Shown here: positions 44,454 through 62,901 of the stretch, one piece after another
How positions within the stretch are numbered: the first letter of the stretch is position 1
How the letters are laid out: every line of letters begins with the position of its first letter
NCBI GenBank assembly: GCA_025361125.1
Contig: JANYBM010000140.1
Coordinates: 46,474-110,473 of the forward strand
Length of the DNA stretch: 64,000 nt
From: Holophagaceae bacterium
GTDB taxonomy: Bacteria > Acidobacteriota > Holophagae > Holophagales > Holophagaceae
Reading direction: 5' to 3'
The notes under the pieces: model-generated
The model's database searches: none
What the model saw: only the letters and a program-made list of their open reading frames with translations
Told to the model about the DNA's origin: nothing
Made by a program: the position numbers and the translations under genes

Positions 44454-45241
44454 AACGAATCCTTGTGTGCCTCCTTCCGGTTTTGGCGGTCATCAGTTGC
44501 GCCAGGGGCCCTCACATTGATCATTCCTACCGGGCCAAGAGCCAGGACAGTCGCGCGCAGTTCCTCATTCTTCATTTCACCGGGGGCACCTGGGAGGCAT
44601 CGCTCAAGACCCTCACTCAGGACAATGTAAGTAGTCATTATCTCGTGCGCGACAATCCAGTGAAGATCTACCAACTTGTCCAAGAGAACCGGCGCGCCTA
44701 TCACGCGGGCGATAGTTCCTGGAAGGGGCAGACGTTGCTCAACGCCGCCTCCATCGGCATCGAGATCCAAAACCTGGGCGACACCAAGGGCCCCGACGGC
44801 ATCGTGTACCACGACTATCCGAAAGCGCAGATCGACGCTGTCATTGAGCTCGTCAAGGCGATCGTCGCACGCCATGAAATTCGCGCCGACCGCATTCTCG
44901 GCCACAGCGACATCGCGCCGCAGCGCAAGGTGGATCCTGGTCCAACCTTCCCATGGAAACGATTTGCGGAGGAAGGAATCATCCCCTGGCCCGATGCATC
45001 AGCGGTCGCCGCCAAGCGTGGGACTTACGAGGCCGACCTCCCCAACGTCGCTTGGTTCCAGGTAAAACTCGCCGAGCACGGCTTTGCCACACCACTGACG
45101 GGCCAACTCGATATCGCCACGAAGAACATCCTTGCAGTCTTCCAGATGAAGTACCGCCCCGCTCGTTACGACGGCATTCCCGATGCAGAGACGGCAGCGA
45201 TTCTGGAGGTCCTGACCCCGCCGAAAGTCAAAGGACCCTGA
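44450..45241 (+). CDS. N-acetylmuramoyl-L-alanine amidase (Amidase_2) with PG-binding domain, lipoprotein, AmiD-like
   Basis: Lipobox LAVISC; FLILHFTGGTWEASL, SSHYLV, ASIGIEIQNLG, ILGHSDIAPQRKVDPGPTFPW; C-terminal PGB1-like repeat. Confidence 0.9.
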   Translation: MKRILVCLLPVLAVISCARGPHIDHSYRAKSQDSRAQFLILHFTGGTWEASLKTLTQDNVSSHYLVRDNPVKIYQLVQENRRAYHAGDSSWKGQTLLNAASIGIEIQNLGDTKGPDGIVYHDYPKAQIDAVIELVKAIVARHEIRADRILGHSDIAPQRKVDPGPTFPWKRFAEEGIIPWPDASAVAAKRGTYEADLPNVAWFQVKLAEHGFATPLTGQLDIATKNILAVFQMKYRPARYDGIPDAETAAILEVLTPPKVKGP

Positions 45242-45331: not shown

Positions 45332-48193
45332 ATGTGGACGGCCTTGACCATGGTCGTATCTCTGAGGGAAGCTCTTGCCGCCATTGTTGGTGCGGATCGC
45401 GTCCTGGACCGACCCGTGGATTTGATCGCCTTCGCATCGGACGCCAGCTTCTACCGGCTCATCCCGAAGGCGGTGGTGTTCCCCAATAGCATTGACGAAG
45501 TGTGTGGACTCTTCCGGCTGAGCCATGAACGGAAGCTCCCCATGACGTTCCGCGCCGCGGGCACGAGCCTATCCGGCCAATCGGTGTCGGACGGCATCCT
45601 GGTGGAGGTGGCCCGGCATTGGCGCGGCCTCCAGGTGTTGGAAGCTGGCGCGAAGGTGAAGGTTCAGCCCGGCGTCATCGGCGCCCACGTGAACTACGCC
45701 CTCAGGGGATTTCGCGCCAAGATGGGCCCCGATCCCGCATCCATTGCCACCTGCACAATTGGTGGCATCCTCTCCAACAACTCCAGTGGCATGTGCTGTG
45801 GTGTTTCCCAGAACGCCTACCACACACTTGAATCCCTGACCTTTGTGCTGCCTTCCGGCACCGTGATCAACACGGCCGCGGCCGATGCTGACGTACGTTT
45901 CCGCGCAACCGAACCAGCCTTAGCCGAAGGCCTGCTGAAGCTGAAGGCGGACCTCTTGGCGAATCCCGCTCTGGCCGAGCGCATCCGCGCCAAGTACCGG
46001 ATGAAGAACACCTGCGGGTATTCGCTCAACGCCTTTCTCGATTTCGATCGCCCGGTAGACATCTTCCGCCACCTGCTCGTGGGCTCCGAAGGCACTTTGG
46101 CTTTCATCGCCGAGGCCGTGCTGAACTCCGTTCCCGACTTGCCTGTGAAGGTGACGGGGTTCCTGATCTTCCCGAATCTGCATGCCGCCTGCGCGGCCAT
46201 TGTGCCGTTGCGTGATGCCGGTGCCGCAGCCTTGGAACTCCTGGATCGTGCGTCCATGAAATCCGTGGAAAACCAGCCCGGCTGCCCACCCAACATCAAA
46301 ACGCTGCCGGCTGGAGCCGCGGCCATGCTGGTTGAATTTCAAGGCCAGGATGAATCCGTCCGCGCCGAGCTGGAACGAATCGCCCTCGCCTCCGCCGCAG
46401 GATTCAATCTGTTGGAGCCCGCCCGATTCACCCACGATCCCGCAGAGCAGGCCCTGATCTGGAAGCTCCGCTCTGGAACTTTCCCTTCCGTTGGCGCGGT
46501 TCGCAAGCATGGCACCACCGTGATCATCGAGGACGTGGCCTTCCCCATAAACCGCCTGGCGGATGCCGCCGTGGACCTCACGAGGCTCTTCGCCAAACAC
46601 GGCTATGACGAGGCCATCATCTTTGGCCACGCCAAGGACGGAAACCTGCACTTCGTCCTTACCCAGTCCTTTAACGACCAGGTCGCCATCAACCGCTACG
46701 CGTGCTTCATGGATGACGTGGTCGAGCTGGTGGTGAAGAAATACGACGGCGCCCTGAAGGCCGAACACGGCACCGGCCGCAATATGGCGCCCTTCGTGGA
46801 AGCGGAATGGGGACCCGAAGCCAAAGCCGTCATGGAGAAGCTGAAAGCGTTGGTGGATCCTGAGCACCTACTGAATCCGGGCGTCATCCTGAACGATGAC
46901 CCCAAGTGCCACTTGGCCAACCTCAAGCCTCTGCCCGGCGTAGAGGAGGAAGTGGACAAGTGCATCGAGTGTGGTTACTGCGAGCCCAAATGCCCCAGCC
47001 GCGAACTCACGCTCACGCCCCGCCAGCGCATCGTCGTGCGCCGCGAGATGGCCCGACTTGAAGCCAGCCGCGAGGACCCTGCCCTGCTCTCTTCTCTGCA
47101 GGAAGCCTTCCCCTACATGGCCCTGGACACCTGCGCGGTGGATGGCCTTTGCGCCATGGCCTGCCCCGTCGGCATTGACACCGGCCAACTCACCAAGCGG
47201 TTTCGCCAGGCCAACCACAGTCACCTCGCGAAGAAAATCGCCCTCCGCTTGGCGCGAAACTTCGCCACCCTGGAACGCACGCTTCGGCTCAGTCTGCGCA
47301 CCGGCCATTTCCTCCAACGGATCTTCGGCCCCAAGGTCATGCCCCTCATCACCCGCGCCATGAAGGTGTTCGGAGCCGCTCATCAGTGGAGCCCAGAGAT
47401 GCCCAAAGCCGCCGAGGCGCCACTTCCCATGACGTTATTAGAAGGCGCCCAAGCCATCTATTTCCCGGCCTGCATCTCCCGAGTGATGGGCCACCTGCCC
47501 GGTGAATCCGATGAGATCAGCCTCGCGGAGGCCATGGTGACTTTGGCGAAGCGCGCCGGAATGCCGGTCCATATCCCACACGATGTGGAGGGCATCTGCT
47601 GTGGCGTCCCTTTCAGCTCCAAAGGTTATGACGAGGCGCATCGGTTTACCGTGAACCGCACCCTCGAGAAGTTCTGGGAGTGGAGCCAGGAGGGCCGTCT
47701 GGCTATTGTGATCGACACCAGCCCTTGTACCTATGGCATGGTCAGCAGCCGAGCCTACCTGACCCCAGCCAACCAAGTGAAGTTCGACCGCCTGAAGATC
47801 CTCGACAGCATTGCTTTCGCCCATGATGTACTGCTGCCCAGGCTCCAGGTGATCCGCAAGGTGAACTCAGTCGCCCTGTTCCCGGTCTGCTCCGTCACCA
47901 AAATGAATCTGACACCGAAGCTGGAAGGCGTCGCCAACGCCTGCGCCGACCAGGTGGTGGTGCCCCGGGATGCAGGCTGCTGCGGCTTCGCGGGCGATCG
48001 TGGCTTCACCCATCCCGAGCTGACGGCTTCGGCCACCGCGCAGGAAGCGAGCGAACTGAAAGGCCAGGCCTTCGATGGCCATTACGCCAGCAGCCGCACC
48101 TGCGAAGTTGGCCTGACCCGCGCCACAGGCGAGGTCTACCGCAGCTTCCTCTACCTGCTCGAATCGGTCACGCGAGAGGAGCATGACCACTGA
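45332..48193 (+). CDS. FAD- and Fe-S-binding D-2-hydroxyacid (D-lactate) dehydrogenase fusion
   Basis: FAD_binding_4 (TFRAAGTSLSGQSVSDGILVEV), FAD-oxidase C (HGTGRNMAPFVEAEWG), 4Fe-4S CIECGYCEPKCPSR and CAVDGLCAMACPVGI, CCG domain (CCGVPFSSKG; CCGFAGDRGF). Confidence 0.9.
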   Translation: MWTALTMVVSLREALAAIVGADRVLDRPVDLIAFASDASFYRLIPKAVVFPNSIDEVCGLFRLSHERKLPMTFRAAGTSLSGQSVSDGILVEVARHWRGLQVLEAGAKVKVQPGVIGAHVNYALRGFRAKMGPDPASIATCTIGGILSNNSSGMCCGVSQNAYHTLESLTFVLPSGTVINTAAADADVRFRATEPALAEGLLKLKADLLANPALAERIRAKYRMKNTCGYSLNAFLDFDRPVDIFRHLLVGSEGTLAFIAEAVLNSVPDLPVKVTGFLIFPNLHAACAAIVPLRDAGAAALELLDRASMKSVENQPGCPPNIKTLPAGAAAMLVEFQGQDESVRAELERIALASAAGFNLLEPARFTHDPAEQALIWKLRSGTFPSVGAVRKHGTTVIIEDVAFPINRLADAAVDLTRLFAKHGYDEAIIFGHAKDGNLHFVLTQSFNDQVAINRYACFMDDVVELVVKKYDGALKAEHGTGRNMAPFVEAEWGPEAKAVMEKLKALVDPEHLLNPGVILNDDPKCHLANLKPLPGVEEEVDKCIECGYCEPKCPSRELTLTPRQRIVVRREMARLEASREDPALLSSLQEAFPYMALDTCAVDGLCAMACPVGIDTGQLTKRFRQANHSHLAKKIALRLARNFATLERTLRLSLRTGHFLQRIFGPKVMPLITRAMKVFGAAHQWSPEMPKAAEAPLPMTLLEGAQAIYFPACISRVMGHLPGESDEISLAEAMVTLAKRAGMPVHIPHDVEGICCGVPFSSKGYDEAHRFTVNRTLEKFWEWSQEGRLAIVIDTSPCTYGMVSSRAYLTPANQVKFDRLKILDSIAFAHDVLLPRLQVIRKVNSVALFPVCSVTKMNLTPKLEGVANACADQVVVPRDAGCCGFAGDRGFTHPELTASATAQEASELKGQAFDGHYASSRTCEVGLTRATGEVYRSFLYLLESVTREEHDH

Positions 48194-48271: not shown

Positions 48272-51200
48272 TCAGAATGTAAACCTTAACCCCAGTTGCG
48301 TTCGGCGTGGTGCGTAGTAGGAAACCGGCAACCCCGCTGTGGCGGAATGCACGCTGGGTTGGAAGTTGTACCCAGTCTGCTTGTTGAAGAGGTTGTAGAT
48401 GTCAACCATACCCTCCAATCGGTACTTCCTGGTTTTCCAGAAGATCTGGGTGTAGTTCACGTCGAACTGGTTGTGGGAAGGAGTTGTACGTGAACCGGCA
48501 GGCTCCGAGTAGCGGTTGGTATCACTGGTGCTAGTGCTCCCCTGGGAGGTCCGGTCGGCGGCGTAGAAGGTGTAGTCCGAGTACTGCCATGGTTGGCCCG
48601 ACTGGTAGATGAAGTAGCCGCCAACTTGGGCCTGCCAGGGGAGCCTGTAGGTACCGAAGACCTTCAGCTTGTGCCGACGGTCGCCGGAGAGGTTTCCGTA
48701 CTTGTTGTTCCAAAGCTGACGACCAAAATCATCGCCGATATTGGAGGATCCCACGAAGATGTTGGAGTCATTAGATGAGCTGCTGGTGGAATTGTCCTGA
48801 TCGAAGTTGCCGTAATAATGGCTCCAGGAGTAAGACATGTTCAGGTAAGCATTGGTACCCTTCCACTCGGTCTCAGCACTCACCTCATAGTATTTGGTAA
48901 AACTGTCGTCCAGCTGGGCCACGACGAAGGTGTTTTTGGTGGCCGCGATGTTGGCTAAAGTACTGCCCTGTAGCTGATTCAGGATCACGTCCAGGTTGGG
49001 GATGTAATAAGTCTGGGGAATACCCGGTGGCGGATTCAACATGACCCGGGCGCCATTGTCCGTGTCTTCCCAGAAGTTGACGCTGTGCCGATAGCGAGCG
49101 TACAGGCGACCGTTCCAGCCACCGCCCAGGTCACGGGTAGTGCCTACCAGAACCTCGTCCGTATGACGTGGTTTCATGCCTGGAGTGAAGAGCTTGCCGG
49201 TGGAGGAAGCATCGGTCTGGTGGTCCACCTGGTGACCCGTTGCGTCGAAGTAGACGTTGACGCTAGCCACTAGATTGCGGTCCCAGGAGGCGGCGCGAGG
49301 CAGTGAGGAGACGGACGGGACGAAACGGGCGTAATTGGCATAGACCGTATCTTCCTTCTGGTAGTTCCAAGTCACACCCAGGCGCGGTTGGAGGGTGTCG
49401 GAGGCCTTAATTTCCTTCTCCAGGTACTTGTTTCCCCTGGCCCGCACGTAGCCCGAGATTTGGGAGGAATCCTCCTGGAGGCCAGACCCGTAGAGCTTGT
49501 CGTCGCTGATCACCATGCCGACATTGAAGGTGAACTGGTTCCACCGGATCTTGTCGTTGATCTCGTAGTTCAGGGCCACATATTCGGAATGGATGGTGGG
49601 CACGCCGGAAATGGCCTGCTGGCTCACGGCTGCGACGTAGGAGAAGGGCAGATGAAGAATGGGGGAGAGCGGAGGATAGACAGCAGTGGCGCCGCTGCCA
49701 GATGGAGCGCCAAGGGAAATGAGGCCCCAGCCGTTGGAAGTTCTGTACAAATCCTCCATCTCCTTCGACCACTGGACGCCTGCGTGGAAGGTGTGGGTGG
49801 TGGTGCTGCCCCAGACGGCATCGTAGGCCAGCTCATAGTTCCGGCGGAAGAAGTTCTGGTTGTTGATCTGGCTGAAGCCGCCCACGTTTCCACCACCAGT
49901 TGGTAAGCCGGTGGTGGGGCTGATGTAGCCATACTTGCTGGTGAGGGGTGCAATGAAGGTGTTGTAGGCCACCTGGGCGGCGGTTGGGCTCGCCCCGCCC
50001 AGTGGGGAAGGCACTTGGAACTGTCCCTGGGTGTCGAGGGAATTTACATCGAGACTGCTGCTGAAGGAGGGCACCGCCGGGGACAGGTAGTCGGGATGGT
50101 CACCACTCTTGAGAATGAAGTTGGTGGTCTTGAAGTTGATGAAGCTGTTGGGGGTCACGTTCCAGGTGGCCTCCAGGGTGCCGATCTTCATCTTGCTCTG
50201 ACCGCCCTGGCCCGTGGTGGCGGCGAAGGCCGACCCGCCGTAGCCCGTATGCTGGACCGTATCATCCGAGTCCCGGTAGCTTGCGTGAATCAGGAGATTT
50301 TGGGTAGGTGCATAGGTCAGCTTGCCAAAATACTCGTTGCGGGTATCCGCAAGATTGGGTGTTGGCCCATACAGGTTGGCGCTGTTCTTCTGGCTGACGG
50401 TGGGGCGGTAAAGGGAGGCGAAGAAGAAGAGCTTGTCCTTCAAAATGGGGCCACCCACGTTGAGGATCGCGTAGGTCTTCTCCTGCTCGAAGACGGCGGC
50501 ACTGGTTCCCACACGCTTGGCTACCAAGTTGTCAGGAAGGATCTGGTAGGACAGCTCACCCGTGAAAACATTGGTGCCGGACTTGCTGATGGAGTTGATG
50601 GTGTAGCCCGCCGAGCGATTGAAACCAGTGGCGTCGGCGCCGCCCTTACTGACGGTGATCTGGTCGATATCGTGGCCCGAGGGCTGGGAGGACATGGTTC
50701 CGTACATCGGCAGATTGACATTCACACCGTCAAACTGGTGGACATTGTCCTGGCCACTGCCTCCAGCACTCGGGGCGCGGACGGCATCCTGGGTGTACAT
50801 CACCCCGGGGAGGAGCTTGACCAGGTCGCGGTAGTCCTGACCGACTGGGAGGGCATTGATCACTTCCGAGTTAAAGGAGGACTTGAGTTCTGACGAGGTG
50901 GCATCCACGAGGGCTGCCCTGTCCGCCACCACCTCCACGGAGGCTCCGGCAACCGCTGCGTCAGCCATGGCCACATTGGCTGTGCTGGTCTGCCCCAGTA
51001 CCACCGAGGCGGAACGCTTCTGGGGCGTCCTGTCCGCATGGGTGAAGGTCAACACATATTCGCCAGGGGGTAGGAAAGGTAGCCGGTATTCACCGGTCTC
51101 GCTGGTCATGACCCGCCGAGGTTGGGGCAGCACATTCGCGGTCACGTCAATGCGGACCCCAGAAAGCCCCTTGCCATTCTTGGCGGTCACTTTACCGACG

Positions 51201-51277
51201 ATGGAGCCGGTCTGCTGAGCAGCCGCCGGGAGGGCAACCAGTACCAACGCCAAAACGCTCCAGTACCTTTTGTGCAT
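48272..51277 (-). CDS. TonB-dependent receptor-like outer membrane protein with carboxypeptidase-regulatory N-domain (Oar-type)
   Basis: Signal peptide MHKRYWSVLALVLVALPAAAQ; TAKNGKGLSGVRIDVTANVL...; plug-like GQDYRDLVKLLPGVMYTQDAVRAPSAGGSGQDNVHQFDGVNVN; C-terminal aromatic RTQLGLRFTF. Confidence 0.87.
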   Translation of the reverse strand: MHKRYWSVLALVLVALPAAAQQTGSIVGKVTAKNGKGLSGVRIDVTANVLPQPRRVMTSETGEYRLPFLPPGEYVLTFTHADRTPQKRSASVVLGQTSTANVAMADAAVAGASVEVVADRAALVDATSSELKSSFNSEVINALPVGQDYRDLVKLLPGVMYTQDAVRAPSAGGSGQDNVHQFDGVNVNLPMYGTMSSQPSGHDIDQITVSKGGADATGFNRSAGYTINSISKSGTNVFTGELSYQILPDNLVAKRVGTSAAVFEQEKTYAILNVGGPILKDKLFFFASLYRPTVSQKNSANLYGPTPNLADTRNEYFGKLTYAPTQNLLIHASYRDSDDTVQHTGYGGSAFAATTGQGGQSKMKIGTLEATWNVTPNSFINFKTTNFILKSGDHPDYLSPAVPSFSSSLDVNSLDTQGQFQVPSPLGGASPTAAQVAYNTFIAPLTSKYGYISPTTGLPTGGGNVGGFSQINNQNFFRRNYELAYDAVWGSTTTHTFHAGVQWSKEMEDLYRTSNGWGLISLGAPSGSGATAVYPPLSPILHLPFSYVAAVSQQAISGVPTIHSEYVALNYEINDKIRWNQFTFNVGMVISDDKLYGSGLQEDSSQISGYVRARGNKYLEKEIKASDTLQPRLGVTWNYQKEDTVYANYARFVPSVSSLPRAASWDRNLVASVNVYFDATGHQVDHQTDASSTGKLFTPGMKPRHTDEVLVGTTRDLGGGWNGRLYARYRHSVNFWEDTDNGARVMLNPPPGIPQTYYIPNLDVILNQLQGSTLANIAATKNTFVVAQLDDSFTKYYEVSAETEWKGTNAYLNMSYSWSHYYGNFDQDNSTSSSSNDSNIFVGSSNIGDDFGRQLWNNKYGNLSGDRRHKLKVFGTYRLPWQAQVGGYFIYQSGQPWQYSDYTFYAADRTSQGSTSTSDTNRYSEPAGSRTTPSHNQFDVNYTQIFWKTRKYRLEGMVDIYNLFNKQTGYNFQPSVHSATAGLPVSYYAPRRTQLGLRFTF

Positions 51278-51440: not shown

Positions 51441-53012
51441 TCACGAAATCGGAGTCGTGGAGTGTTTGATCAAGTACTCACGCCCGAAACGGCTTGTATT
51501 TCCTATGAGGATCGTCACCATGCTGCCAATGAAGGTGTGCCAGGTGAAATCTATTTTTGTGAAGGTCAGGACCGCGATCATGGCGAGCAGTCCACCCACG
51601 AATCCGATTGCAGCATCAACCTGGAGCGTTTTCTTGAACAGCAATCCGAGTAAAAATGTCCCTAGCAGTCCGCCATAAGTGAACGAGGCGATTTTCAGGC
51701 CGAGTTCTATGACCGGATTCTTCGTGTCCGTAAAAAGCATCGCGCCGCCGATGAGGGCCACACCCCATACGAGTGTGAAGATGCGCGACCAGCGGAGCTC
51801 GCTCTGTTCATTCAGGGAGCGCCCGTGCTCCGTGAGCTTGAAGATATCAAGATAGGTCGAGGATGCCAGCGAGCTGATGGAGGAGGACAGGGTTCCCATG
51901 GCCGAAGCAAGGACACCCGCGACCACCAGCCCCGCGATCCCAGTGGGCAGGTTTTCAACAATGAATTTCGGAAAGACTTCATCCGAGGTCGCAAGGCCCA
52001 GTTGTTGAAAGGAGACGCCGCCATAGAAGGCGTACAAACATAATCCGAGCACCAGAAAAAATCCGAATTGCAGGACGATGAACGTCGCATCGAGCATCAG
52101 CGCGCGCTGGCTGTCCCAACGGCTGCGACACCCCAAAAGCCGTTGCACGAGCATTTGGTCGGTGCCATGGGAAGCCATGGTCAGGAAGGTCCCCCCGAGC
52201 AGTCCGCCCAGCAGCGTGTAGGGCGCCATGAGAAACGCCATAAAGGTAGTGCCGGTAGGGGTGTTGATGAAGGCGAATTTGGCTTGCCCGTGGGATGAAG
52301 CAAAGGCCACCACGTCCGACCAGCCATTGGGTAGGTGGTGAAGGATGAGCGCCATCGAAGCCACGGCGCCACCTAAATAGATGAACAGTTGGACCACATC
52401 CATCGCCACGACGGCCTTCAACCCGCCAAGATAGGTGTACACGAGCGTGAAACCACCAATGACCACGATGCTTACGGGATAGCTCAAGCCCGTGATGAGA
52501 TGCACGGGAATGGCGGTGGCAAACAAGCGGACGCCCGAAGCCAGCACACGGGTGACGATGAACACCAGGGAAGTGAATCTGCGCAGCGGGAGGCCAAACC
52601 GTTTGCCTAGAAAATCGTAGGCAGTCTCCAGGTCGCCGCGGTAATAGGCCGGGATGAACACCACGCTCACGATCAAGCGGCCGATGAAATAGCCGACCGC
52701 CAGTTGCAGGAAGAACAGGTTTCCTTTGAACGCCAAACCAGGAATGCTGATGAAGGTCAGCGTGCTCGTTTCACTAGCCGCGATCGAAAGACCGACCGAC
52801 CACCAGGACATCTGCTTCCCGCCCAGAAAATAGTCCCGGGACGAGCGCTGACGGCCGGAAATCAGGATGCCAGCGACAGTCACACCAAGTAGGTAGACGG
52901 TGACGATCACATAGTCCAAGGGAGCGAAACCCACAGTGAGAATCCTTACGACAGTTGCGAATGGACGTGAGTGCAACGCCTGGATGGAACCGCACTCATT
53001 CAGATCCTCCAT
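51441..53012 (-). CDS. Sodium:solute symporter (SSS family)
   Basis: GRQRSSRDYFLGGKQMSWWSVGLSIAASETSTLTFISIPG; TYLGGLKAVVAMDVVQLFIYLGG; GVLASAMGTLSSSISSLASSTYLDIF. Confidence 0.9.
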   Translation of the reverse strand: MEDLNECGSIQALHSRPFATVVRILTVGFAPLDYVIVTVYLLGVTVAGILISGRQRSSRDYFLGGKQMSWWSVGLSIAASETSTLTFISIPGLAFKGNLFFLQLAVGYFIGRLIVSVVFIPAYYRGDLETAYDFLGKRFGLPLRRFTSLVFIVTRVLASGVRLFATAIPVHLITGLSYPVSIVVIGGFTLVYTYLGGLKAVVAMDVVQLFIYLGGAVASMALILHHLPNGWSDVVAFASSHGQAKFAFINTPTGTTFMAFLMAPYTLLGGLLGGTFLTMASHGTDQMLVQRLLGCRSRWDSQRALMLDATFIVLQFGFFLVLGLCLYAFYGGVSFQQLGLATSDEVFPKFIVENLPTGIAGLVVAGVLASAMGTLSSSISSLASSTYLDIFKLTEHGRSLNEQSELRWSRIFTLVWGVALIGGAMLFTDTKNPVIELGLKIASFTYGGLLGTFLLGLLFKKTLQVDAAIGFVGGLLAMIAVLTFTKIDFTWHTFIGSMVTILIGNTSRFGREYLIKHSTTPIS

Positions 53013-53020
53013 CCGCAGAG

Positions 53021-53836
53021 CTAGTGGGGCTCGTTTTTCCCCTTCTGAACACTTGATAGGGGATCGCCAGCTGAGGCATTCCGGTAGATTTTCCCTTGGA
53101 GATTGAAAAGGATTCTTAGGTCCATTTCATCCAGGACAGTCCCCCGGTCGCCCCGGTAGTGAAGGCGGAAGGCCCTGAGGGTCGCACCCTTGTCTTTGAG
53201 GCTGTAGCCCATCAGCACCAAGGCCTGGAAAGGATCGAAACCGGCCGGAGCCTCCTGCAGATTCTCATCAGGCCAAAGGCCGAAGCCATGCTCGGCAAGG
53301 CGCTTCCAGGGGAAGAATCCGCTGGGATCCGCCTTGAACACCGGTTCAACATCCGCATGCCCCACCACCTGCGTGCGGGGAATCCGAAAGCGGCTGGTGA
53401 GATCCTCCAGCAAGATGAGTAGCGCATCAATCTGAGGCGAGGAAAAAGGTTCCGCTCCGTTGTTATCCAGCTCGATACCGATGGAGATGGAATTGATATC
53501 CCGATAAGCCCCCCACGTTCCGGTCCCCGCATGCCAAGCCCGGTCATCATCTGAGACCAGCTGGGCGATGCGACCGTTTCGCCCGATGAGGTAGTGGGCA
53601 CTCACGGGACCGCCATCGTTGTGCGTCTTGAGCTGCTTCAGCGAATACTCGAAGGAGGCACCGGCCGTATGGTGGATGACCACCAGCTGGGGTCTGCGGG
53701 CATTGAAATTGGGCGAAGGCATCCATTCTGCGAGGCTGTTCCGGGGTGAGCGGCAAGCCACAGGCGTGAGCACCAGCAGCGTTCCTAAAAGGCCAGTGAC
53801 GACTCTTGGGTGGGCGAAGTGCTTTATCAAGAACAT
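53021..53836 (-). CDS. N-acetylmuramoyl-L-alanine amidase (Amidase_2), exported/lipoprotein
   Basis: LVVIHHTAGASFEYSLKQL, VSAHYLIGRNGRIAQLV, SISIGIELDNNG, VVGHADVEPVFKADPSGFFPWKRL; N-terminal signal with Cys (TPVACRSP). Confidence 0.9.
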   Translation of the reverse strand: MFLIKHFAHPRVVTGLLGTLLVLTPVACRSPRNSLAEWMPSPNFNARRPQLVVIHHTAGASFEYSLKQLKTHNDGGPVSAHYLIGRNGRIAQLVSDDDRAWHAGTGTWGAYRDINSISIGIELDNNGAEPFSSPQIDALLILLEDLTSRFRIPRTQVVGHADVEPVFKADPSGFFPWKRLAEHGFGLWPDENLQEAPAGFDPFQALVLMGYSLKDKGATLRAFRLHYRGDRGTVLDEMDLRILFNLQGKIYRNASAGDPLSSVQKGKNEPH

Positions 53837-53838
53837 GG

Positions 53839-55218
53839 CTAACGCTTGGCTGGCACGGCTGATTCCGTGTTGCGGAAAAGTTCTGGATAGGTGCCACGGC
53901 GTCGAATGACCCGGACCGCGTTGCCATCCACCAGGACCTCGGCTGGCATGGGACGGGCGTTGTACTCGCTGGCCATGGAGAAGCCATAAGCACCGGCATC
54001 AAGGATCACAACGAGGTCACCCGCCTCGGCCATGGGCAGCGTCCTGGCCTCGGCAAGGATGTCCCCGGTTTCGCAGACGTCTCCAGCGATGTCCACGAGT
54101 TTGGGGTCTTTGGTCTTTCCGATCACGCGCACGCGATGGTACGCCTTGTACATGGCCGGTCTCATCAAAGTATTGAAGCCTGCATCCACATTCACGAACG
54201 TCTTGAGGGGTGTCACTTTCACGGTGTTCACGCGCGTTAATAGGAAACCGGAACCCCCCACGAAGAATCGGCCTGGTTCCAGCCAAAGGGTCGGCTCATA
54301 GCCCGCCGCCGCGACGCCCTCTTTCCATACGGGCTCCAAAGCCTTGGCCAGATCGTCCGGCGACATCACCGTCTGCCCATCCTCATAAGGAATGCCCAAG
54401 CCGCCGCCCAAGTCCAGGAAGCTGAGTTTGATGCCCAGTTTTTCCTTGAGGTCCTTTACCAGCCCCAGCATTTTGCGGGCGGTAAGGACATAGCCATCGG
54501 CCTCAGTGATCTGTGAGCCGATGTGACAGTGGGCTCCTTCGATTCGGATCTCTGGCATCCCCTTGGCTTTCTCATAGGCTTTGAAGGCGAGGCCATCCTG
54601 AAGGTGCAACCCGAATTTCGATTCGGCGATGCCGGTATTGATCTGGTGGATCGTGTGGGGATCCACGCCCGGATTGACGCGGAAGGAGATGCGGGCCTGC
54701 TTTTTTTGTTGTCGGGCTTCGATCTGAATCTGGCCGAGTTCATCCAAGGAGTCCACATTGAGCACCGCGCCCAATTCGATGGCGCGGCGAATTTCTCCAG
54801 GGTTCTTGGAAGAGGAAGTGAACATGATCTCGGGGCCGGTGTAACCCACTCGCAGCGCCGTTTCGATCTCGCCCCGGGACACGACCTCGGCGCCGAGCCC
54901 TTTGGCTTTAAGCAATTTGATGACCACCGGATTGGTGTTGGCCTTGATGGCGTATAGGATTCTCAGCTTGGGAAAACGGGATGCAAAGGCGGTTTGCAGT
55001 GCTTGCACCTGCCCCTGGATATGCGGTTGGTCATAAATGTAGAGCGGAGTCCCGTAGGTTTCTGCGAGGCGGCGGAAGGCGGCGGTGACGCCCGGTTCTC
55101 CAGCCCGATCCGCGCGGGTGGCCATGAGCGCCTCGTGGAGCGTCGGTTTCGCCTCCTGGGCTTGCAGGCAGGGTACGGATAACAGGAGAAAGGTGAAAGC
55201 GAGGCGGCGCAGGGGCAC
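53839..55218 (-). CDS. lysA: Diaminopimelate decarboxylase with predicted N-terminal signal peptide
   Basis: GTG start at 55218 preceded by TTTGGAGTTCCCC. MPLRRLAFTFLLLSVPCLQAQEAKP, then a full DapDC: LYAIKANTNP, GAHCHIGSQI, LEPGRFFVG, DVCETGD, DAGAYGFSMASEYNARP. Confidence 0.9.
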   Translation of the reverse strand: MPLRRLAFTFLLLSVPCLQAQEAKPTLHEALMATRADRAGEPGVTAAFRRLAETYGTPLYIYDQPHIQGQVQALQTAFASRFPKLRILYAIKANTNPVVIKLLKAKGLGAEVVSRGEIETALRVGYTGPEIMFTSSSKNPGEIRRAIELGAVLNVDSLDELGQIQIEARQQKKQARISFRVNPGVDPHTIHQINTGIAESKFGLHLQDGLAFKAYEKAKGMPEIRIEGAHCHIGSQITEADGYVLTARKMLGLVKDLKEKLGIKLSFLDLGGGLGIPYEDGQTVMSPDDLAKALEPVWKEGVAAAGYEPTLWLEPGRFFVGGSGFLLTRVNTVKVTPLKTFVNVDAGFNTLMRPAMYKAYHRVRVIGKTKDPKLVDIAGDVCETGDILAEARTLPMAEAGDLVVILDAGAYGFSMASEYNARPMPAEVLVDGNAVRVIRRRGTYPELFRNTESAVPAKR

Positions 55219-55289
55219 GGGGAACTCCAAATGAAAGGTGGATGCTAGGCAGAAGGACAGAGCGGTCGAAGGCGTATCCCGAAGCAGGG

Positions 55290-56711
55290 TCATGGGGTTT
55301 GCGGATGGATCTCGGGTGGCAAGTTCCAGGCTGCACAGGCGGAATCCAGGATCGGCTCTGGAACCTGAACCAACACCGGGTGCTGGGCCGGATCCAGCCA
55401 TCGGAGCACCGTGAGCAATTCCTCCGTGGCCAGGGCGGTGCAGCCCGAAGTGCCATTGCCAGGCGGCGGGGACACATGGAAGAAGATGCAGCTTCCGGCG
55501 CCTTTGCGGGGCTTCAAATCGTTGTAGTGGAGCACCACCATGTAGCGATAGTGATCTGTATCCATGCGCAGGTACTCCGCGGATCGCCAGGTTCTGGGCG
55601 CGTCTGGCGTAGTCAAATGGACGAGTTTTGCGTAGTCCTTGTCATCCGGATCGTCCACGCAGCGATCGCACTTGGTAGCCATGGTGTAGGGCAGGCGGAC
55701 ACCTTCCGGGGCTTTCGGCGCGTAACCCCACATACCCCCAAAAGTGAGAACGCCCGCGGGGGAGCGGCCATCCCCTTCACGTTTCACGGGGCCAGGAGCA
55801 GGCGGTGGAGGGGCACCCTCATCGCTTCGCCACGCCATGCCCTTGCCACCAATCCAAACAGGTAGCGGGGCGCCCACGGGTGCGAAGCTCCCCGCTTGAA
55901 GTTCATATCGCTGCATCGATCCTTTGGGATTGTTCCAATCAGGTGTGGTGACCAGGAGGATCTGGCCTGCCCGCGCCAAGTCCGCTGACTTCCCGACGAT
56001 GGCTTCGAAAGGCAGGTTCATGTTCGGGTAATCGGCACTGGTGACGTGATCAAAATGCCACCATTCCTCCTTGAGAACCTTGAAGCCCTCGGCTTCCATG
56101 GAAGCGCGCAACAGGTCCCGGTTGCGCCGGGCTTCAGCGGAACCTTCCGCATAGTCTGAGTGGGAGCGCGGGGACATCTCGTCATAGTCGCTGGGCATGG
56201 CGGCAGCGGCTCCATCCGCCAAGCGGATCAGGTCCAGATCCACCGCGCAACCGCGGTTGTGCACGGATCCTTTGGCAGGATCGGCGACATACTCATGGTT
56301 CTCGGGCGGGGTGGCCTCCCAGAAAACTTTGGTGACCCACCAGGGACGGTAGGCATCATGGATCCGCAAGGCAAAACCGGAGCGCAGGAGCGCGTGGTTC
56401 ACGCGCACCAAAGCATCGGCCACGGGACGCTGCAGGAAGGCTTTGGCCTCGCCATAGACTGGTGTGTGCAGAAAGTTGTCCTTGGAGGCGTAACGGATGT
56501 CCAATCGCAGGGTGGGGTCAAGGGTGGTGATCTCCACCAGATCCGGCTTGCTTCTGGTTTGAGGCCAGTGGGGAGGTGTGGCGGCACGGGCCTCTTTGAT
56601 AAGCTCGGCCACAGGTCGCTGAGTAAAGCTTTGCGCCGAGGCAACCCCAGCCCCGACACCTAAGGCCGTGGCCAGCGCAAGGCAAACAGAAATCAACCTG
56701 GCCATGGACAT
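55290..56711 (-). CDS. VanX-type D-Ala-D-Ala dipeptidase fused to a C-terminal YkuD-like L,D-transpeptidase domain, exported
   Basis: Signal MSMARLISVCLALATALGVGAGVASAQ. VanX motifs SVHNRGCAVDLDL and EEWWHFDH. C-terminal VKREGDGRSPAGVLTFG...CIFFHVSPPPGNGTSGCTALATEELLTVLRWLDP. Confidence 0.85.
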   Translation of the reverse strand: MSMARLISVCLALATALGVGAGVASAQSFTQRPVAELIKEARAATPPHWPQTRSKPDLVEITTLDPTLRLDIRYASKDNFLHTPVYGEAKAFLQRPVADALVRVNHALLRSGFALRIHDAYRPWWVTKVFWEATPPENHEYVADPAKGSVHNRGCAVDLDLIRLADGAAAAMPSDYDEMSPRSHSDYAEGSAEARRNRDLLRASMEAEGFKVLKEEWWHFDHVTSADYPNMNLPFEAIVGKSADLARAGQILLVTTPDWNNPKGSMQRYELQAGSFAPVGAPLPVWIGGKGMAWRSDEGAPPPPAPGPVKREGDGRSPAGVLTFGGMWGYAPKAPEGVRLPYTMATKCDRCVDDPDDKDYAKLVHLTTPDAPRTWRSAEYLRMDTDHYRYMVVLHYNDLKPRKGAGSCIFFHVSPPPGNGTSGCTALATEELLTVLRWLDPAQHPVLVQVPEPILDSACAAWNLPPEIHPQTP

Positions 56712-56724
56712 GCTGTTTCTCCGT

Positions 56725-57909
56725 TCAGGTGTGCTTCCGGGCAACGCGCCGATGGAGGGCGCAGGTGACTTCATAGGGGATGGTGCCCAGGAGCCGCGCC
56801 GTTGCCGCTACGGAATGCGGATCCTTTGGCTTCCGGCTGAGCAGGACCATGGACTCGCCTGGATGGATGGCCACGGATTCAGGCACTACGACGGTCAAGG
56901 AGTCCATGGACACCCGCCCCACCACCGGATAAGTGATGCCCTTGTAGCCTGCCCAGGCCCGGTTCGCCAGGGCGCGCGGGTACCCATCCGCGTACCCGCA
57001 GTTCAGGGTCACGAGCTTGACTGGATGGGGCGCCACATAGGTGCAGCCGTAGCCCACGGTGGTACCCGCAGGGATGACCACAGCCCGGAACACTTCAGCG
57101 CTGAGTTCAAGAATCGGTAGCAGTCCGGCTTGCTGGGCCTCCTCCAATTCCGAAAGTCCGTAGAGCGAGATCCCACAACGCACGTGGGTGTCACCCTCCG
57201 TGAAGCCACGCAGGCACCCGGCGCTATTGGCGTGGTGGACCTGACGCAGGGAAATGCCGGCATCGCGCAACTGGGCCAAGGCACCCAGGAACCTGCTTCG
57301 TTGTACTTGGGTGAAACGGGTGTCGGTTTCGTCCGCTGCAGCAAAATGCGCCATGGCGCCTAGAAGCCAGGGCTGGAGGCGTCGGATCGGATCGAGGCAG
57401 GCCCCCAGTTCAGAGATCAACAAGCCCGATCGGCCCATGCCCGTATCCAATTTCAGGTGCAGGCCCACCGGGTGCTGCGGCACAAGTTTCGCCAATTCCA
57501 AAAGGTGGTCCGCGGAAACGACCGTGAGGTCAATGCCATGCGTGGATGCCAAGGGCAGGGATTCCGGCCGGACGCCACCGAACACGAGGATCGGTGATGA
57601 GATGCGCGCGCGCCTCAGTTCCAGTGCCTCTGGCAGCGTCGCCACACAAAAGCCCGCCACATGAGCGGCCTCCAATGCTTGAGCCACCTGGACCGCGCCG
57701 TGGCCATAAGCGTCCGCCTTGACCACCGCAAGAATGCCGAGCCCCTTGGCAACCTGGCGCATGGCATTCAAGTTCTGGATGAGCTGATCAAGATCCACCC
57801 TGGCAACCAAGCCGTCCCCGTCTCCGGGCAAGTTGGCTGGCGGTGCCACTGTTTTACTGACGCTAGGCATATCGCCATGGTAACGGCTTTGGAATTCATC
57901 AAGGGTCAT
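56725..57909 (-). CDS. alr: Alanine racemase (no evident signal peptide)
   Basis: PLP motif VVKADAYGHGA; LKLDTGMGRSGLL; RCGISLYGL; VGRVSMDSLTV. Confidence 0.93.
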   Translation of the reverse strand: MTLDEFQSRYHGDMPSVSKTVAPPANLPGDGDGLVARVDLDQLIQNLNAMRQVAKGLGILAVVKADAYGHGAVQVAQALEAAHVAGFCVATLPEALELRRARISSPILVFGGVRPESLPLASTHGIDLTVVSADHLLELAKLVPQHPVGLHLKLDTGMGRSGLLISELGACLDPIRRLQPWLLGAMAHFAAADETDTRFTQVQRSRFLGALAQLRDAGISLRQVHHANSAGCLRGFTEGDTHVRCGISLYGLSELEEAQQAGLLPILELSAEVFRAVVIPAGTTVGYGCTYVAPHPVKLVTLNCGYADGYPRALANRAWAGYKGITYPVVGRVSMDSLTVVVPESVAIHPGESMVLLSRKPKDPHSVAATARLLGTIPYEVTCALHRRVARKHT

Positions 57910-57968: not shown

Positions 57969-58862
57969 ATGAGCAGAACAGGATGGCGCGGACTTCTGGC
58001 CTATGTGCTGATGGCGTTGGCCGCCCTGCCCGCTTGGACCAAGGATCCAGTTGCCTATGTGGTCATCAGGCCGGTCGTGAACCTGTACCACGGTCCACGT
58101 GAGGATACGGATGTGGTTTCCCAAACACTATTGGGCGCGCGTCTGGTGGAACTGGATCGAGCGGAGGGCTGGGCCCGCGTTAAAGGCGATGACGACTATC
58201 CGGGGTGGCTCCAGCTTGCCAGCCTTCGCGCGTTGGATGCCGGTGAACGCTATCCAAGCTCCCTGGAGCCTGGGAATGTCGTGGCGGTTGATGCCCTGGG
58301 GGCGAATCTATACCTTGAACCGGACCTGACCAAACATGCTCCGGTCATGACCATTCCCTACGGTATTCGACTGGAACGGGTGAACGGTGGGAAGGATTCC
58401 CAGCGATGGCTGGAGATCAAGCTGCCGGACCACAGCATCGCCTGGATCCAATCCGGGGACGTGCGCACAGATCTCAAGCCGCTCGGGCTCAAAGCTTCAC
58501 TCGAGCTGGCACAGCGTTTTCTGGGCGTCACTTACACCTGGGGAGGTTCCTCCAGTTTCGGCTTTGATTGCTCGGGTTTCACCCAGACCATTCTCCGAAG
58601 CCGGGGCGTGATCATGCCCCGGGACGCCAATATCCAGGCCGATTGGTCGGGACTGGTTCCGGTGCCGGACCGCCAACAGCTCCAGCCCGGCGACCTGCTG
58701 TTCTTCGGCAAGGACAAGGCCCATATCACCCACACCGGGATGTACCTTGGTAAGGATTCCTTCATTCATGACACGACCCATGATCACCCCCGAACTCAGA
58801 TCTCGGACCTCGGGGATTCTTATTGGTCCAAGCTCCTGGTAGCGATGCGGAGGCTCAAATGA
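57969..58862 (+). CDS. Exported SH3-domain NlpC/P60 endopeptidase (YkfC-like gamma-D-Glu-diamino acid endopeptidase)
   Basis: Signal MSRTGWRGLLAYVLMALAALPAWT; bacterial SH3-like repeats; FGFDCSGFTQTILRSRG (Cys), HITHTGMYLG (His). Confidence 0.88.
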   Translation: MSRTGWRGLLAYVLMALAALPAWTKDPVAYVVIRPVVNLYHGPREDTDVVSQTLLGARLVELDRAEGWARVKGDDDYPGWLQLASLRALDAGERYPSSLEPGNVVAVDALGANLYLEPDLTKHAPVMTIPYGIRLERVNGGKDSQRWLEIKLPDHSIAWIQSGDVRTDLKPLGLKASLELAQRFLGVTYTWGGSSSFGFDCSGFTQTILRSRGVIMPRDANIQADWSGLVPVPDRQQLQPGDLLFFGKDKAHITHTGMYLGKDSFIHDTTHDHPRTQISDLGDSYWSKLLVAMRRLK

Positions 58863-59992
58863 ATCGGCGTGAATTATTCCAGACCCTGGCCGCAGGCACT
58901 GCCGGCGCGACGCTCCTGGGCCGCGACGTGCTCGTGGCACCTCTCAGTAAAACGAAGGGCCCTGGCACCACCTCGTTTTCAACCCAGGTTCGGCGCTTGC
59001 AACTTCGGCATACCTGGACCACCACCATGTCCTCCAGTTCCTACCGGGACACTCTGCATACGCAGTTCACGCGCGAGGGTATCACCGGGTATGGCGAAGG
59101 GGCCGGCATTGTCCGCTACCAGCAGAATGCCCTCGGAGGCCAGAAGGCATTGGAAGCGTTGCAGTCCGTGATCACCGCCACGGACCCCTGGGGCTTCGAA
59201 AAATTCATTGCCGAACTAGACCACCTGTTGCCGGGTCAGCGGGCCGCATTGGCTGCTGTGGATATCGCCCTCCTGGACTGGATCTGCAAGAAACTGGGCG
59301 TCCCCATTTACCGTTTCTTCGGCTTGGATCCTGCGGATGCGGCCATCACCAACATGTCCATCGGCATTGACACGCCAGAGATAACCAAGCAAAAGGTGCG
59401 TGAGGCCGAGGATTTCCCATTCCTCAAGGTCAAGGTCGGCCTTGCCTCGGACGAGGCCACCATTGACGCCGTTCGCAGTGTCACCAAGAAACCGCTCCGG
59501 GTGGATGCCAACGAAGGCTGGACCAGCAAGGAGGAAGCCGTCAGGAAGATCAACTGGCTGGAATCCCAAGGCGTGCAATTCATCGAGCAACCCTTGCCCG
59601 CCCACATGCTTGAGGAAGCCCGGTGGGTGCGCAGCCGGGTGCATATGCCGATCTTCGCTGACGAGGCCTGCCATTCCGCAGCGGACATTCCGAAGCTGCG
59701 CGATGGCTTTGATGGCATCGTCATCAAGCTCGACAAGTCTGGTGGCTTTATCGAAGCCCACCGGCAGATCACCGTGGCCAAGGCTCTGGGCATGAAGACC
59801 CTGCTCGGCTGCATGGTCTCAAGTTCCTGCACCATCACCGCGGCGGCACACCTCTCTCCACTGGTGGACTATGCCGATCTGGACGGCAACCTTCTGATCT
59901 CCAACGATCCATTCACAGGCGTGACCGTGCACAAGGGCAAGCTCATTTTGCCAAACACGCCGGGGCTGGGCCTCCACTTAACCAAGGCCTGA
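58859..59992 (+). CDS. Enolase-superfamily L-Ala-D/L-Glu (dipeptide) epimerase with Tat-like signal
   Basis: MNRRELFQTLAAGTAGATLLG; KVKVG, DANEGW, IEQPLP, DEACHSAADI, IVIKLDKSGG, YADLDGN; ATGA overlap with NlpC gene. Confidence 0.85.
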   Translation: MNRRELFQTLAAGTAGATLLGRDVLVAPLSKTKGPGTTSFSTQVRRLQLRHTWTTTMSSSSYRDTLHTQFTREGITGYGEGAGIVRYQQNALGGQKALEALQSVITATDPWGFEKFIAELDHLLPGQRAALAAVDIALLDWICKKLGVPIYRFFGLDPADAAITNMSIGIDTPEITKQKVREAEDFPFLKVKVGLASDEATIDAVRSVTKKPLRVDANEGWTSKEEAVRKINWLESQGVQFIEQPLPAHMLEEARWVRSRVHMPIFADEACHSAADIPKLRDGFDGIVIKLDKSGGFIEAHRQITVAKALGMKTLLGCMVSSSCTITAAAHLSPLVDYADLDGNLLISNDPFTGVTVHKGKLILPNTPGLGLHLTKA

Positions 59993-60023
59993 AAGTCCCA
60001 CCAGCCTTGGCTTGGAGATCCGC

Positions 60024-61166
60024 ATGAAGCAAAGAACCATCCTGAATCTTCTGAAATCCCTGATCTATGGGCTAGCCCTGAGTCTTACGCTTTCGGCCCA
60101 GACCCCCGATCGATTTCTGGATCAGCCCAGATCCGCCGGAGACGGCCTCCGTCTGGTCGTCTTCAACCCTACGGCCTTCAACATCAAGGCCCTGGCCACC
60201 CTGCGGGAAAAGGGAATCCTCGATGTTCAAGGTCTCACCGTGGTTGGAGTCTTCCACGTCAGCCAGAAGGATGACTTTGAGGATTCCAAAAAACTCGTCC
60301 GTGAAAACGGTCTCGACTGGGTCAAGTTCCACGCGATCTCAGGCGCCATCAGCGAACCCGATATCTTCAAGAACAATGCCTGTACGCCTGAATTTGAAAC
60401 CATTCTCAAAAAAGCAGACGGTGTCATTTTTTTCGGTGGCCCAGATATCCCATCGTCCATTTTTCAGAGGAAGACCAGCCTGCTTGTGGAGATCACGGAT
60501 CCCTATCGGCACTATCTTGAACTCTCCGCGATCTTTCACTTTTTAGGCGGAGCTCAGGACCCAAAAAGCCCTGCGCTGCTCGATTCACGACCCAAGTTTG
60601 CGGTTCTTGGAATTTGTCTTGGTTTCCAGAGTTTGAATGTAGGAACGGGTGGAACGCTTACCCAGGACATCTGGTCCGAGAGCTACGGAAAAGCCAATGT
60701 GGAGGACGCGATCGCGCTGGGTCCCGAGCGGTGGCACAACAATCCCTATCAACGGCTGTACCCCCAGGACAAGCTCATGCCCTACAACTTCCACACCCTC
60801 AATCTCATGGGAAAAGGCAAACTCGTGAAGGACCTCGGCTTCAACATGAGGGATCATCCGCGAGTTCTCAGCTCCCACCATCAGGCCCTCGGGGCACTCG
60901 GCCAAGGCTGGTCCACCATCGCCACTTCCCGGGATGGCAAAATTATCGAAGCCATTGAACACCAAAATTTCCCTAATGTTCTTGGCATCCAATTTCATCC
61001 TGAACATCCCATGTTGTGGGATGTCGAGCCTCGTTTCCGGCAACAGCCTGGTGACCCACTGACTAGCTACCACGCCATCCTTGCGGGAACCCCCGGCAGC
61101 CTGGAATTCAACCAGGCGATCTGGAAATGGTTCGGCGAAAAGCTTAAGGAAAGTCACGGCCATTGA
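60024..61166 (+). CDS. Exported class I glutamine amidotransferase-like/peptidase C26-like (gamma-glutamyl hydrolase fold) protein
   Basis: GGAG 6 nt before ATG at 60024; signal MKQRTILNLLKSLIYGLALSLTLSAQ; nucleophile elbow VLGICLGFQSLNVGTGGTLTQD, HHQAL, GIQFHPEHP. Confidence 0.75.
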   Translation: MKQRTILNLLKSLIYGLALSLTLSAQTPDRFLDQPRSAGDGLRLVVFNPTAFNIKALATLREKGILDVQGLTVVGVFHVSQKDDFEDSKKLVRENGLDWVKFHAISGAISEPDIFKNNACTPEFETILKKADGVIFFGGPDIPSSIFQRKTSLLVEITDPYRHYLELSAIFHFLGGAQDPKSPALLDSRPKFAVLGICLGFQSLNVGTGGTLTQDIWSESYGKANVEDAIALGPERWHNNPYQRLYPQDKLMPYNFHTLNLMGKGKLVKDLGFNMRDHPRVLSSHHQALGALGQGWSTIATSRDGKIIEAIEHQNFPNVLGIQFHPEHPMLWDVEPRFRQQPGDPLTSYHAILAGTPGSLEFNQAIWKWFGEKLKESHGH

Positions 61167-61182: not shown

Positions 61183-62616
61183 TCAGCGGCGAGTTTCTTT
61201 CATGGCCTGCCACACCTTTGGAAGCGCCTGCACAAGGCTGCGCGAAGCAGCGGGCAGGTTGTCCGGCGTGAGCGTCACGACGGTCGTATCTTCTTTTTCA
61301 AAATTCCCCAGGGCGCGACCCAGGCGATAAGCATTGTCCAAAGTACCGTCGCTTCCCAGCATCACCCCAGCTGCGGTGGAATTGGGAACCGAGAAGTAGA
61401 AGCTTGCCACGACGGGCTTGACACGGGAGGAGGGTGCCCGCCTGAGTTGGCGCGCTGACATTTCCCGGAACAGAGCTTTGGCCGATTGTTCCGCTGGATT
61501 CACCAGGATCAGCCCCTGAGACAGGCGCGAAGCAAAGGGCTGAGCGCCACCCTCATCCCGGTACACCCTTGTGCGATGGAACGCTTCGACCAGGTCGCGC
61601 TCCACCAGTGGAAAGTGGGTGCAACCCAGCACCACCAAACCCATGGGCGGCGCTTGCGGGTGCTGGTCACGGAAGCCTGTCATGAGGCTGGCCACATCGA
61701 AACGGATGTAGCCCAGCACCGTATTGAGGGTGCCCCCAAGGAGTTGGTTTGCTTCCAGTCCGCTCACCAAGGACACTTCTGCATTCAAGGCGGGGCCTTG
61801 GTAGGGCACGGGACGCGCAGTAGCTCCGGCTTCGGTGACGAAGGCAGGATTGCCTTCGATGGCCCCGGCAAGACCCACGCTGCCCTGTTGGATTACGGTG
61901 GGAATTGCCTTCCCTAACCGGGCCGCAGCCTTGGCGATGGCCGCCGGGTAGGCCCCCGAAGCACAGGTGCCCACCGTGGCCAGGACGCCCACCGAAGGCG
62001 CCGGCCCCGCTACCGGCAACAACTCCGCCACCGCCTCGGCTCCGGCATCCACCACGCCGATGACCGGGATGTTCACGCCCCATTCCTTCAAGGCGCTTCG
62101 GAGATCCTCTATGCCATAAGCAGTGCCTGTGTTGCAGGCGATGACGATGGCTTTCACGGACGGCTTGTCGAAGCGCACGGGCTTGCTCGCGCCCTTGCGA
62201 TAGCGATGGCCCATCAGAAAGACCGAGTCCTTTAGGATCAATTCCCGCAGGAGGTCCGTCCGGCCCGCAGCCGGATAATTTCCATAGGGCATGTTGGCTT
62301 GGTCGCCCAAGTAGATGAAGCGTTCGCCGGCGAAGTCTGGAATACCGTCTGGCACCGCTTGCAAGGTCCGATTGTTGACCACATCCAGACTCAGCAGAGC
62401 TTCCAGGACCGTCAGGCCGCCGATGCCCGAATCGAAGACACCGATCGGGAGATCTTCAAGATGACCGTGCCGCAACTTTATGAGGTCGGCAGAATAGAGC
62501 ACCCTTCCTTTAGGATGCGCCACAACATGGGCCTTCAGGGGGGCCAGGGCATCCTGGGCAAAACCCTGGACAAACAGGGTTGCAGAAAGCAGAAAAGCCC
62601 CACCCAGACAGCGCAT
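61183..62616 (-). CDS. murI: Glutamate racemase-like (Asp/Glu racemase) enzyme with signal peptide and C-terminal extension
   Basis: Signal MRCLGGAFLLSATLFVQGFAQ; GVFDSGIGGLTVLEAL, IACNTGTAYG, VVLGCTHFPLV; about 478 aa, much longer than a typical MurI. Confidence 0.82.
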   Translation of the reverse strand: MRCLGGAFLLSATLFVQGFAQDALAPLKAHVVAHPKGRVLYSADLIKLRHGHLEDLPIGVFDSGIGGLTVLEALLSLDVVNNRTLQAVPDGIPDFAGERFIYLGDQANMPYGNYPAAGRTDLLRELILKDSVFLMGHRYRKGASKPVRFDKPSVKAIVIACNTGTAYGIEDLRSALKEWGVNIPVIGVVDAGAEAVAELLPVAGPAPSVGVLATVGTCASGAYPAAIAKAAARLGKAIPTVIQQGSVGLAGAIEGNPAFVTEAGATARPVPYQGPALNAEVSLVSGLEANQLLGGTLNTVLGYIRFDVASLMTGFRDQHPQAPPMGLVVLGCTHFPLVERDLVEAFHRTRVYRDEGGAQPFASRLSQGLILVNPAEQSAKALFREMSARQLRRAPSSRVKPVVASFYFSVPNSTAAGVMLGSDGTLDNAYRLGRALGNFEKEDTTVVTLTPDNLPAASRSLVQALPKVWQAMKETRR

Positions 62617-62901
62617 GAGCTGGGTTCCCTTCTGGGTGAGGTGCAGGTAGTGGGCAGGGCGGATCCATTGCATCTGGGAGGCCTTCAAGGATCGGAAGCG
62701 AGGGGCACAGAATGCGCTCGGAGCAGCGCCTTGTCAAAAATGGTCTGGCCACGTCTTTGTTCTGTGGGGTCGAGGGTTGCCCCACAGATGAAGCATTCAG
62801 CCCACCGAAAGGTGTACAGGCGGAAACCCCAGCTAGGTCGCGGCCTGACCGCAAGCTGGTTTTTCGCGATACTTTCCTTTTAGAACCTGACCGGAGCCCC
62901 G

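Follow-up and report, generated by a model that had tools for sequence, protein, structure and literature searches.

The window (the whole 64,000-nucleotide stretch of Holophagaceae DNA analysed here) carries a ~26-kb murein-catabolism cluster at positions 36355-62688, within which lies the gene of a diaminopimelate decarboxylase, LysA (53839..55218, minus strand), that is predicted to be exported.

Genes of the murein-catabolism cluster

The cluster begins on the plus strand with NagA, a GlcNAc-6-phosphate deacetylase (36355..37488; TIGR00221, 239.8 bits against a cut-off of 225.65), a SIS-domain glucosamine-6-phosphate deaminase of the NagB-II type (37472..38491; NF046059, 261.7 bits, below cut-off), the MurNAc-6-phosphate etherase MurQ (38488..39384; NF003915, 362 bits, cut-off 168), and an AmpG-type muropeptide permease (39381..40676; TIGR00901, 183 bits, below cut-off). 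These are followed on the same strand by a DUF5009/HGSNAT-like membrane acyltransferase (40673..41818; PF07786, PF16401), a GHL10 glycosyl-hydrolase-like protein (41788..43362; PF02638, 201 bits), an N-acetylglucosamine kinase-like protein of the NagK SO3507 type (43482..44453; NF046058, 59.8 bits, below cut-off), an AmpD-like amidase lipoprotein with a lipobox and a peptidoglycan-binding domain (44450..45241; PF01510, PF01471), and an FAD/Fe-S D-2-hydroxyacid dehydrogenase (45332..48193; PF02913, PF01565, and Fe-S domains), the substrate of which is likely D-lactate from MurQ.

The minus-strand genes that come next encode a TonB-dependent-receptor-like outer membrane protein (48272..51277; CarboxypepD_reg plus beta barrel, PF13620, PF25183), a sodium:solute symporter (SSF) that is a candidate importer of a product (51441..53012; PF00474, TIGR00813), an AmpD-like N-acetylmuramoyl-L-alanine amidase with a lipobox (PVAC) that is present in orthologs as well (53021..53836; PF01510), LysA itself, a fusion of a D-Ala-D-Ala dipeptidase (VanX, M15) to a YkuD L,D-transpeptidase-type domain with a signal peptide (55290..56774; PF01427, PF03734), and an alanine racemase, Alr, with no signal peptide (56725..57909; TIGR00492, 278.6 bits), which is missing from some of the orthologous clusters. 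Back on the plus strand lie a YkfC-like SH3b-NlpC/P60 gamma-D-Glu-diamino-acid endopeptidase with a signal peptide (57969..58862; PF00877, PF18348), a dipeptide epimerase of the L-Ala-D/L-Glu type with a Tat-type RRELFQ signal, the RR motif of which is conserved (58859..59992; PF13378/PF02746), and a gamma-glutamyl hydrolase-like peptidase C26 with a signal peptide (60012..61166; PF07722). A glutamate-racemase-like (MurI-like) protein, again with a signal peptide (MRCLGGAFLLSATLFVQGFAQ), closes the cluster on the minus strand (61183..62688; TIGR00067, 81 bits, below cut-off).

Among solved structures, B. cereus YkfC (3h41) and its relatives 3npf and 3pvq come nearest to the NlpC/P60 protein and 3iji/3ijl (269.8 bits) to the epimerase, while the MurI-like protein, when aligned to solved MurIs, keeps the DSGIGG, CNT, and GCTH motifs intact and has long insertions. 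The ortholog N-termini retain Sec signals on the NlpC/P60, C26, and VanX-YkuD proteins, lipoboxes on both amidases, and the Tat-type RRELFQ on the epimerase, and show no signal on Alr. Several further observations concern these genes: export of a dipeptide epimerase, here indicated by a conserved Tat-type motif, is in itself unusual; the MurI-like protein has a full ortholog in G008 only (64%); and an ordinary MurI of the same genome lies on contig C9. A scan for promoters and terminators gave no sigma-70-like promoter, and terminators were not in excess.

Start and predicted signal peptide of LysA

The open reading frame at 53839-55218 encodes an intact LysA of 459 aa with a GTG start codon at 55218, the start that the initial annotation had preferred. 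A GGAG Shine-Dalgarno sequence (55225..55228, minus strand) stands 6 nt before it, and both the position of the start (GTG or ATG) and the spacing of a GGAG, GGGAG, or AGGAG sequence are the same in the orthologs of all 17 further genomes of the family, which are 75-86% identical over the aligned part, so that the start is conserved in 18 genomes. From this GTG, the protein begins with MPLRRLAFTFLLLSVPCLQA-QEAKP and continues into a complete LysA.

The first 20 residues (55159..55218, minus strand) form a predicted Sec-type signal peptide with cleavage at A20/Q21 (CLQA-QE), in which position -3 is Leu, rather than Ala. We made this call by scoring the composition of the n-, h-, and c-regions ourselves and by comparing orthologs; by this scoring, all three Sec-type regions are predicted at the true start, and the ortholog leaders have a short basic n-region, a hydrophobic leucine-rich h-region (e.g., MSLRRLSLALLL), and, ahead of the mature protein, a small residue. 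The 12-residue Kyte-Doolittle maximum is 2.0-2.7 in the exported-LysA orthologs and at most about 1.7 in other LysAs, biosynthetic ones included, when the same N-terminal region is scanned. Because 17 orthologs keep the start, the Shine-Dalgarno spacing, and the signal features, the hydrophobic N-terminus is more than a chance feature, and the Sec-type leader first proposed from the window's letters is now predicted across the 18 genomes.

Longer forms of the protein, from ATG 55293 (earlier put forward as an alternative start), TTG 55230, or ATG 55401, were discarded, as these starts are non-conserved and stops lie just upstream in some orthologs; those of G034 and G025 have a stop in frame 5 codons before the LysA start, which argues against a longer protein. 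The ATG at 55293 forms an ATGA overlap (55290-55293) with the VanX-YkuD stop, perhaps a relic of translational coupling. Tat export of LysA was also set aside: the window's LysA has RR at the relevant position and its orthologs RQ, RP, RH, or CR, and this lack of a conserved twin arginine indicates Sec rather than Tat.

Enzyme identity and fold

LysA scores 451.8 bits against the TIGR01048 profile (cut-off 297.9), and the PLP lysine (YAIKAN, K92) and the HCHIGSQ, EPGR, and CETGD motifs, from which the initial annotation had recognised an intact enzyme, are all present. In an alignment of 42 LysAs, K92, H232, G234-Q236, E314, G316-R317, C382-E383, D386, and the active-site tyrosine Y411 are invariant. 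An AlphaFold model made with 42 sequences (mean pLDDT 92.9) has a PLP barrel and a C-terminal sheet domain, and its top fold matches in the PDB are the diaminopimelate decarboxylases (DapDCs) 1tuf/1twi (E 3e-47; TM 0.82/0.87 for 1tuf), the best structural matches being the DapDCs of M. jannaschii, A. aeolicus, and H. pylori. Residues 1-20 of the model have pLDDT values of 52-55 and an ordered, confident domain begins at about residue 21, which would fit a cleaved leader. Assignment as a broad-spectrum racemase (Bsr) was rejected (Ala_racemase_N, 22.5 bits, below 24.1; TIGR00492 unmatched). The enzyme family is a known one, and the reaction is very probably that of the biosynthetic DapDC.

Could the true substrate be something other than free meso-DAP, such as meso-DAP-D-Ala, D-lysine, D-ornithine, or another murein-derived D-amino acid, with a product other than lysine? 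The D-ornithine/D-lysine decarboxylase DokD is related to LysA and has the same fold, and murein composition varies in other bacteria, but the DokD profile gives 184.9 bits (cut-off 700) as against the far higher LysA score, the residues of the DapDC motifs are the invariant ones, and DapDCs come first in the fold search. We hold a substrate of this kind to be unlikely, and retain meso-DAP as the predicted one.

A second, biosynthetic LysA

A different LysA, 28-32% identical, without a signal peptide and starting with MSLF or MNLF, is encoded in three genomes of the same genus (G001, G003, and G004) and in G018 and G025; it lies close to dapA in G001, G003, G004, and G018, and both LysAs are encoded in G018 and G025, each of which is assembled as a single contig. 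The LysA of the window differs from biosynthetic ones in its predicted signal, and the dap-linked LysA of its relatives is another protein. The second, signal-less LysA for which a search had been proposed is found in relatives, whereas the assembly from which the window comes (91.6% complete, in 181 contigs) yielded only the exported LysA and no biosynthetic one; a second match of the genome search, on contig C133, resembles the arginine decarboxylase SpeA (631 aa) and not a LysA. The contig with dapA, C112, aligns with the operon of the sister genome G003 and ends ~640 bp before the start of lysA there, so the missing biosynthetic gene is most simply explained as an assembly gap.

Being the sole LysA found in this assembly, the protein might be taken for an ordinary cytoplasmic enzyme of lysine biosynthesis, with a hydrophobic stretch that does not work as a signal or a true start downstream of it, and an only lysA with such a start is what the initial annotation had named as speaking against export. 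Yet in 18/18 orthologs the hydrophobic stretch lies downstream of both the Shine-Dalgarno sequence and the start, with no start codon conserved between signal and domain (the downstream ATG, MATRAD, is not kept as a start codon among them), the one-contig relatives also have another, signal-less LysA, the dapA contig stops just before the expected lysA, and the gene stands in a murein-catabolism cluster, away from the dap genes. A cytoplasmic biosynthetic role consequently seems improbable to us, and export remains the preferred reading.

Distribution, co-occurrence, and phylogeny

The exported LysA is present in 18 of the 78 family genomes and the Tat-type epimerase in those same 18, the one exception outside them being a diverged epimerase copy (45% identical) in G016. 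The hypergeometric chance of this co-occurrence is 9e-17 when relatedness is ignored, and the true figure is less extreme. The 18 genomes come from five genera, many negatives being interspersed among them, and the cluster is conserved, yet its gene order is rearranged between genera. In a phylogenetic tree, the 18 exported LysAs form one clade (SH-aLRT 99) far from the biosynthetic LysA of the family, and the nearest outside homologs (family f34 and L065) have no signal, which implies that this lineage has either acquired or lost export. A strict threshold for the exported LysA is passed by 11/396 genomes sampled from the phylum, which makes the trait a narrow one.

Other LysAs came to light in these searches. 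A LysA of Candidatus Riflebacteria (L064:10001-11275) is 63% identical and has a signal peptide, with no recognisable murein cluster around it; in family f34 (L168:4635-10916), an S66 LD-carboxypeptidase of Tat type is encoded close to a signal-less LysA. In another family of the class, the LysA N-terminus is hydrophobic in L046, L047, and L048, where downstream starts are possible; in G038 and G040, this LysA is the sole one found.

Proposed function

Textbooks describe LysA as cytoplasmic. The sequences show which genes are present, which of their products carry signal peptides, that the catalytic motifs are intact, and how the genes are conserved and co-occur; together these features suggest that the LysA studied here is probably a catabolic DapDC, exported by Sec to the periplasm, that converts meso-DAP to L-lysine as part of a murein-utilisation locus. 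The initial annotation had likewise envisaged that an exported DapDC would act on meso-DAP derived from murein, a prediction that gains support from the exported murein-enzyme neighbours and the co-occurring epimerase. What we infer in the following model is that the protein is in fact exported and loaded with PLP, which substrate it uses, and which protein acts as importer.

Murein fragments would be supplied by outer-membrane uptake or local turnover, the exported amidases would detach the stem peptides from the sugars, and these peptides would be trimmed by VanX-YkuD, perhaps together with C26. The YkfC-like NlpC/P60 enzyme would then cut gamma-D-Glu-meso-DAP and, as it bears an export signal, free meso-DAP would appear beyond the inner membrane, the predicted location of LysA. 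There, LysA, having acquired its PLP in the periplasm, would decarboxylate the D-centre of meso-DAP, and the resulting L-lysine would be imported, possibly by the SSF symporter; no lysine-specific importer was identified in the cluster. L-Ala-D-Glu would be handled by the Tat-type epimerase, and the sugars would enter via AmpG for cytoplasmic processing by MurQ, NagA, NagB-II, and NagK.

More broadly, and with somewhat less assurance, we favour a largely externalised murein-peptide pathway, in which non-protein residues would be turned into L-amino acids in the periplasm before uptake, chemistry that usually follows peptide import. The conversions so externalised would be those of meso-DAP to L-Lys, of L-Ala-D-Glu to L-Ala-L-Glu, and, in two genomes, of D-Glu to L-Glu by the exported MurI-like racemase.

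Amino-acid decarboxylation consumes a proton, and diaminopimelate-containing fragments can act as signals, so an exported decarboxylase might serve mainly in pH control or in removing a meso-DAP signal, rather than in nutrition. The gene, however, keeps company with catabolic genes, among them those for sugar and D-hydroxyacid enzymes, and an antiporter, with which acid-resistance decarboxylases are typically paired, was not seen beside LysA; we give such a role very little credence beside murein catabolism.

A search of the open literature (subscription papers lie outside it) returned no report of an exported DapDC and, within that literature, the conserved change of compartment of LysA and the predicted export of the murein-peptide enzymes encoded beside it appear new. 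If true, a conserved exported LysA would place PLP-dependent amino-acid metabolism and the conversion of murein to lysine outside the inner membrane, and would raise the question of how PLP reaches a Sec-exported enzyme. It would also offer a testable model for environmental bacteria feeding on dead cell walls, in which chemistry inside and outside the cell can be compared between G016 and the cluster described here.

Comparison with known systems

The exported LysA shares its fold and catalytic motifs with biosynthetic LysA (TIGR01048; 1tuf, 2p3e, and 2qgh), but differs from it in having a predicted signal peptide, in belonging to a murein-catabolism cluster instead of a dap operon, and in forming a separate clade. 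The Vibrio broad-spectrum racemase BsrV, earlier cited as a precedent, is a PLP enzyme acting on amino acids in the periplasm (PMC7890096), and the parallel holds for an exported PLP enzyme, though not for the chemistry: BsrV, a homolog of alanine racemase, produces D-amino acids, whereas the exported LysA is a decarboxylase that would remove the D-centre of meso-DAP. In Bacillus, the ykf system of murein tripeptide catabolism (YkfB epimerase, YkfC endopeptidase) brings together a YkfC-like NlpC/P60 enzyme and a dipeptide epimerase, as here, but the enzymes of the present cluster bear export signals and include an exported LysA. The YkfC of Chlamydia recycling is described as probably cytosolic, with peptide import (PMC9928106).

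A counterpart lies within the family, in G016 (L043:6927-18404), where LysA (34% identical), VanX, YkuD, Alr, and the epimerase stand side by side. These five types of enzyme are also found together here, but in G016 LysA, VanX, and the epimerase are without signals, while the YkuD N-terminus is hydrophobic. VanX and YkuD are separate genes there and fused at 55290-56774 in the window; an EamA transporter in the G016 cluster is possibly an exporter of a product. This cluster adjoins genes for a family-5 solute/peptide-binding protein and ABC permeases, and signal-less enzymes beside a peptide transporter are what would be expected if the same chemistry ran inside the cell after uptake. It thus appears that similar chemistry takes place after import in G016 and before import in the cluster of the window.
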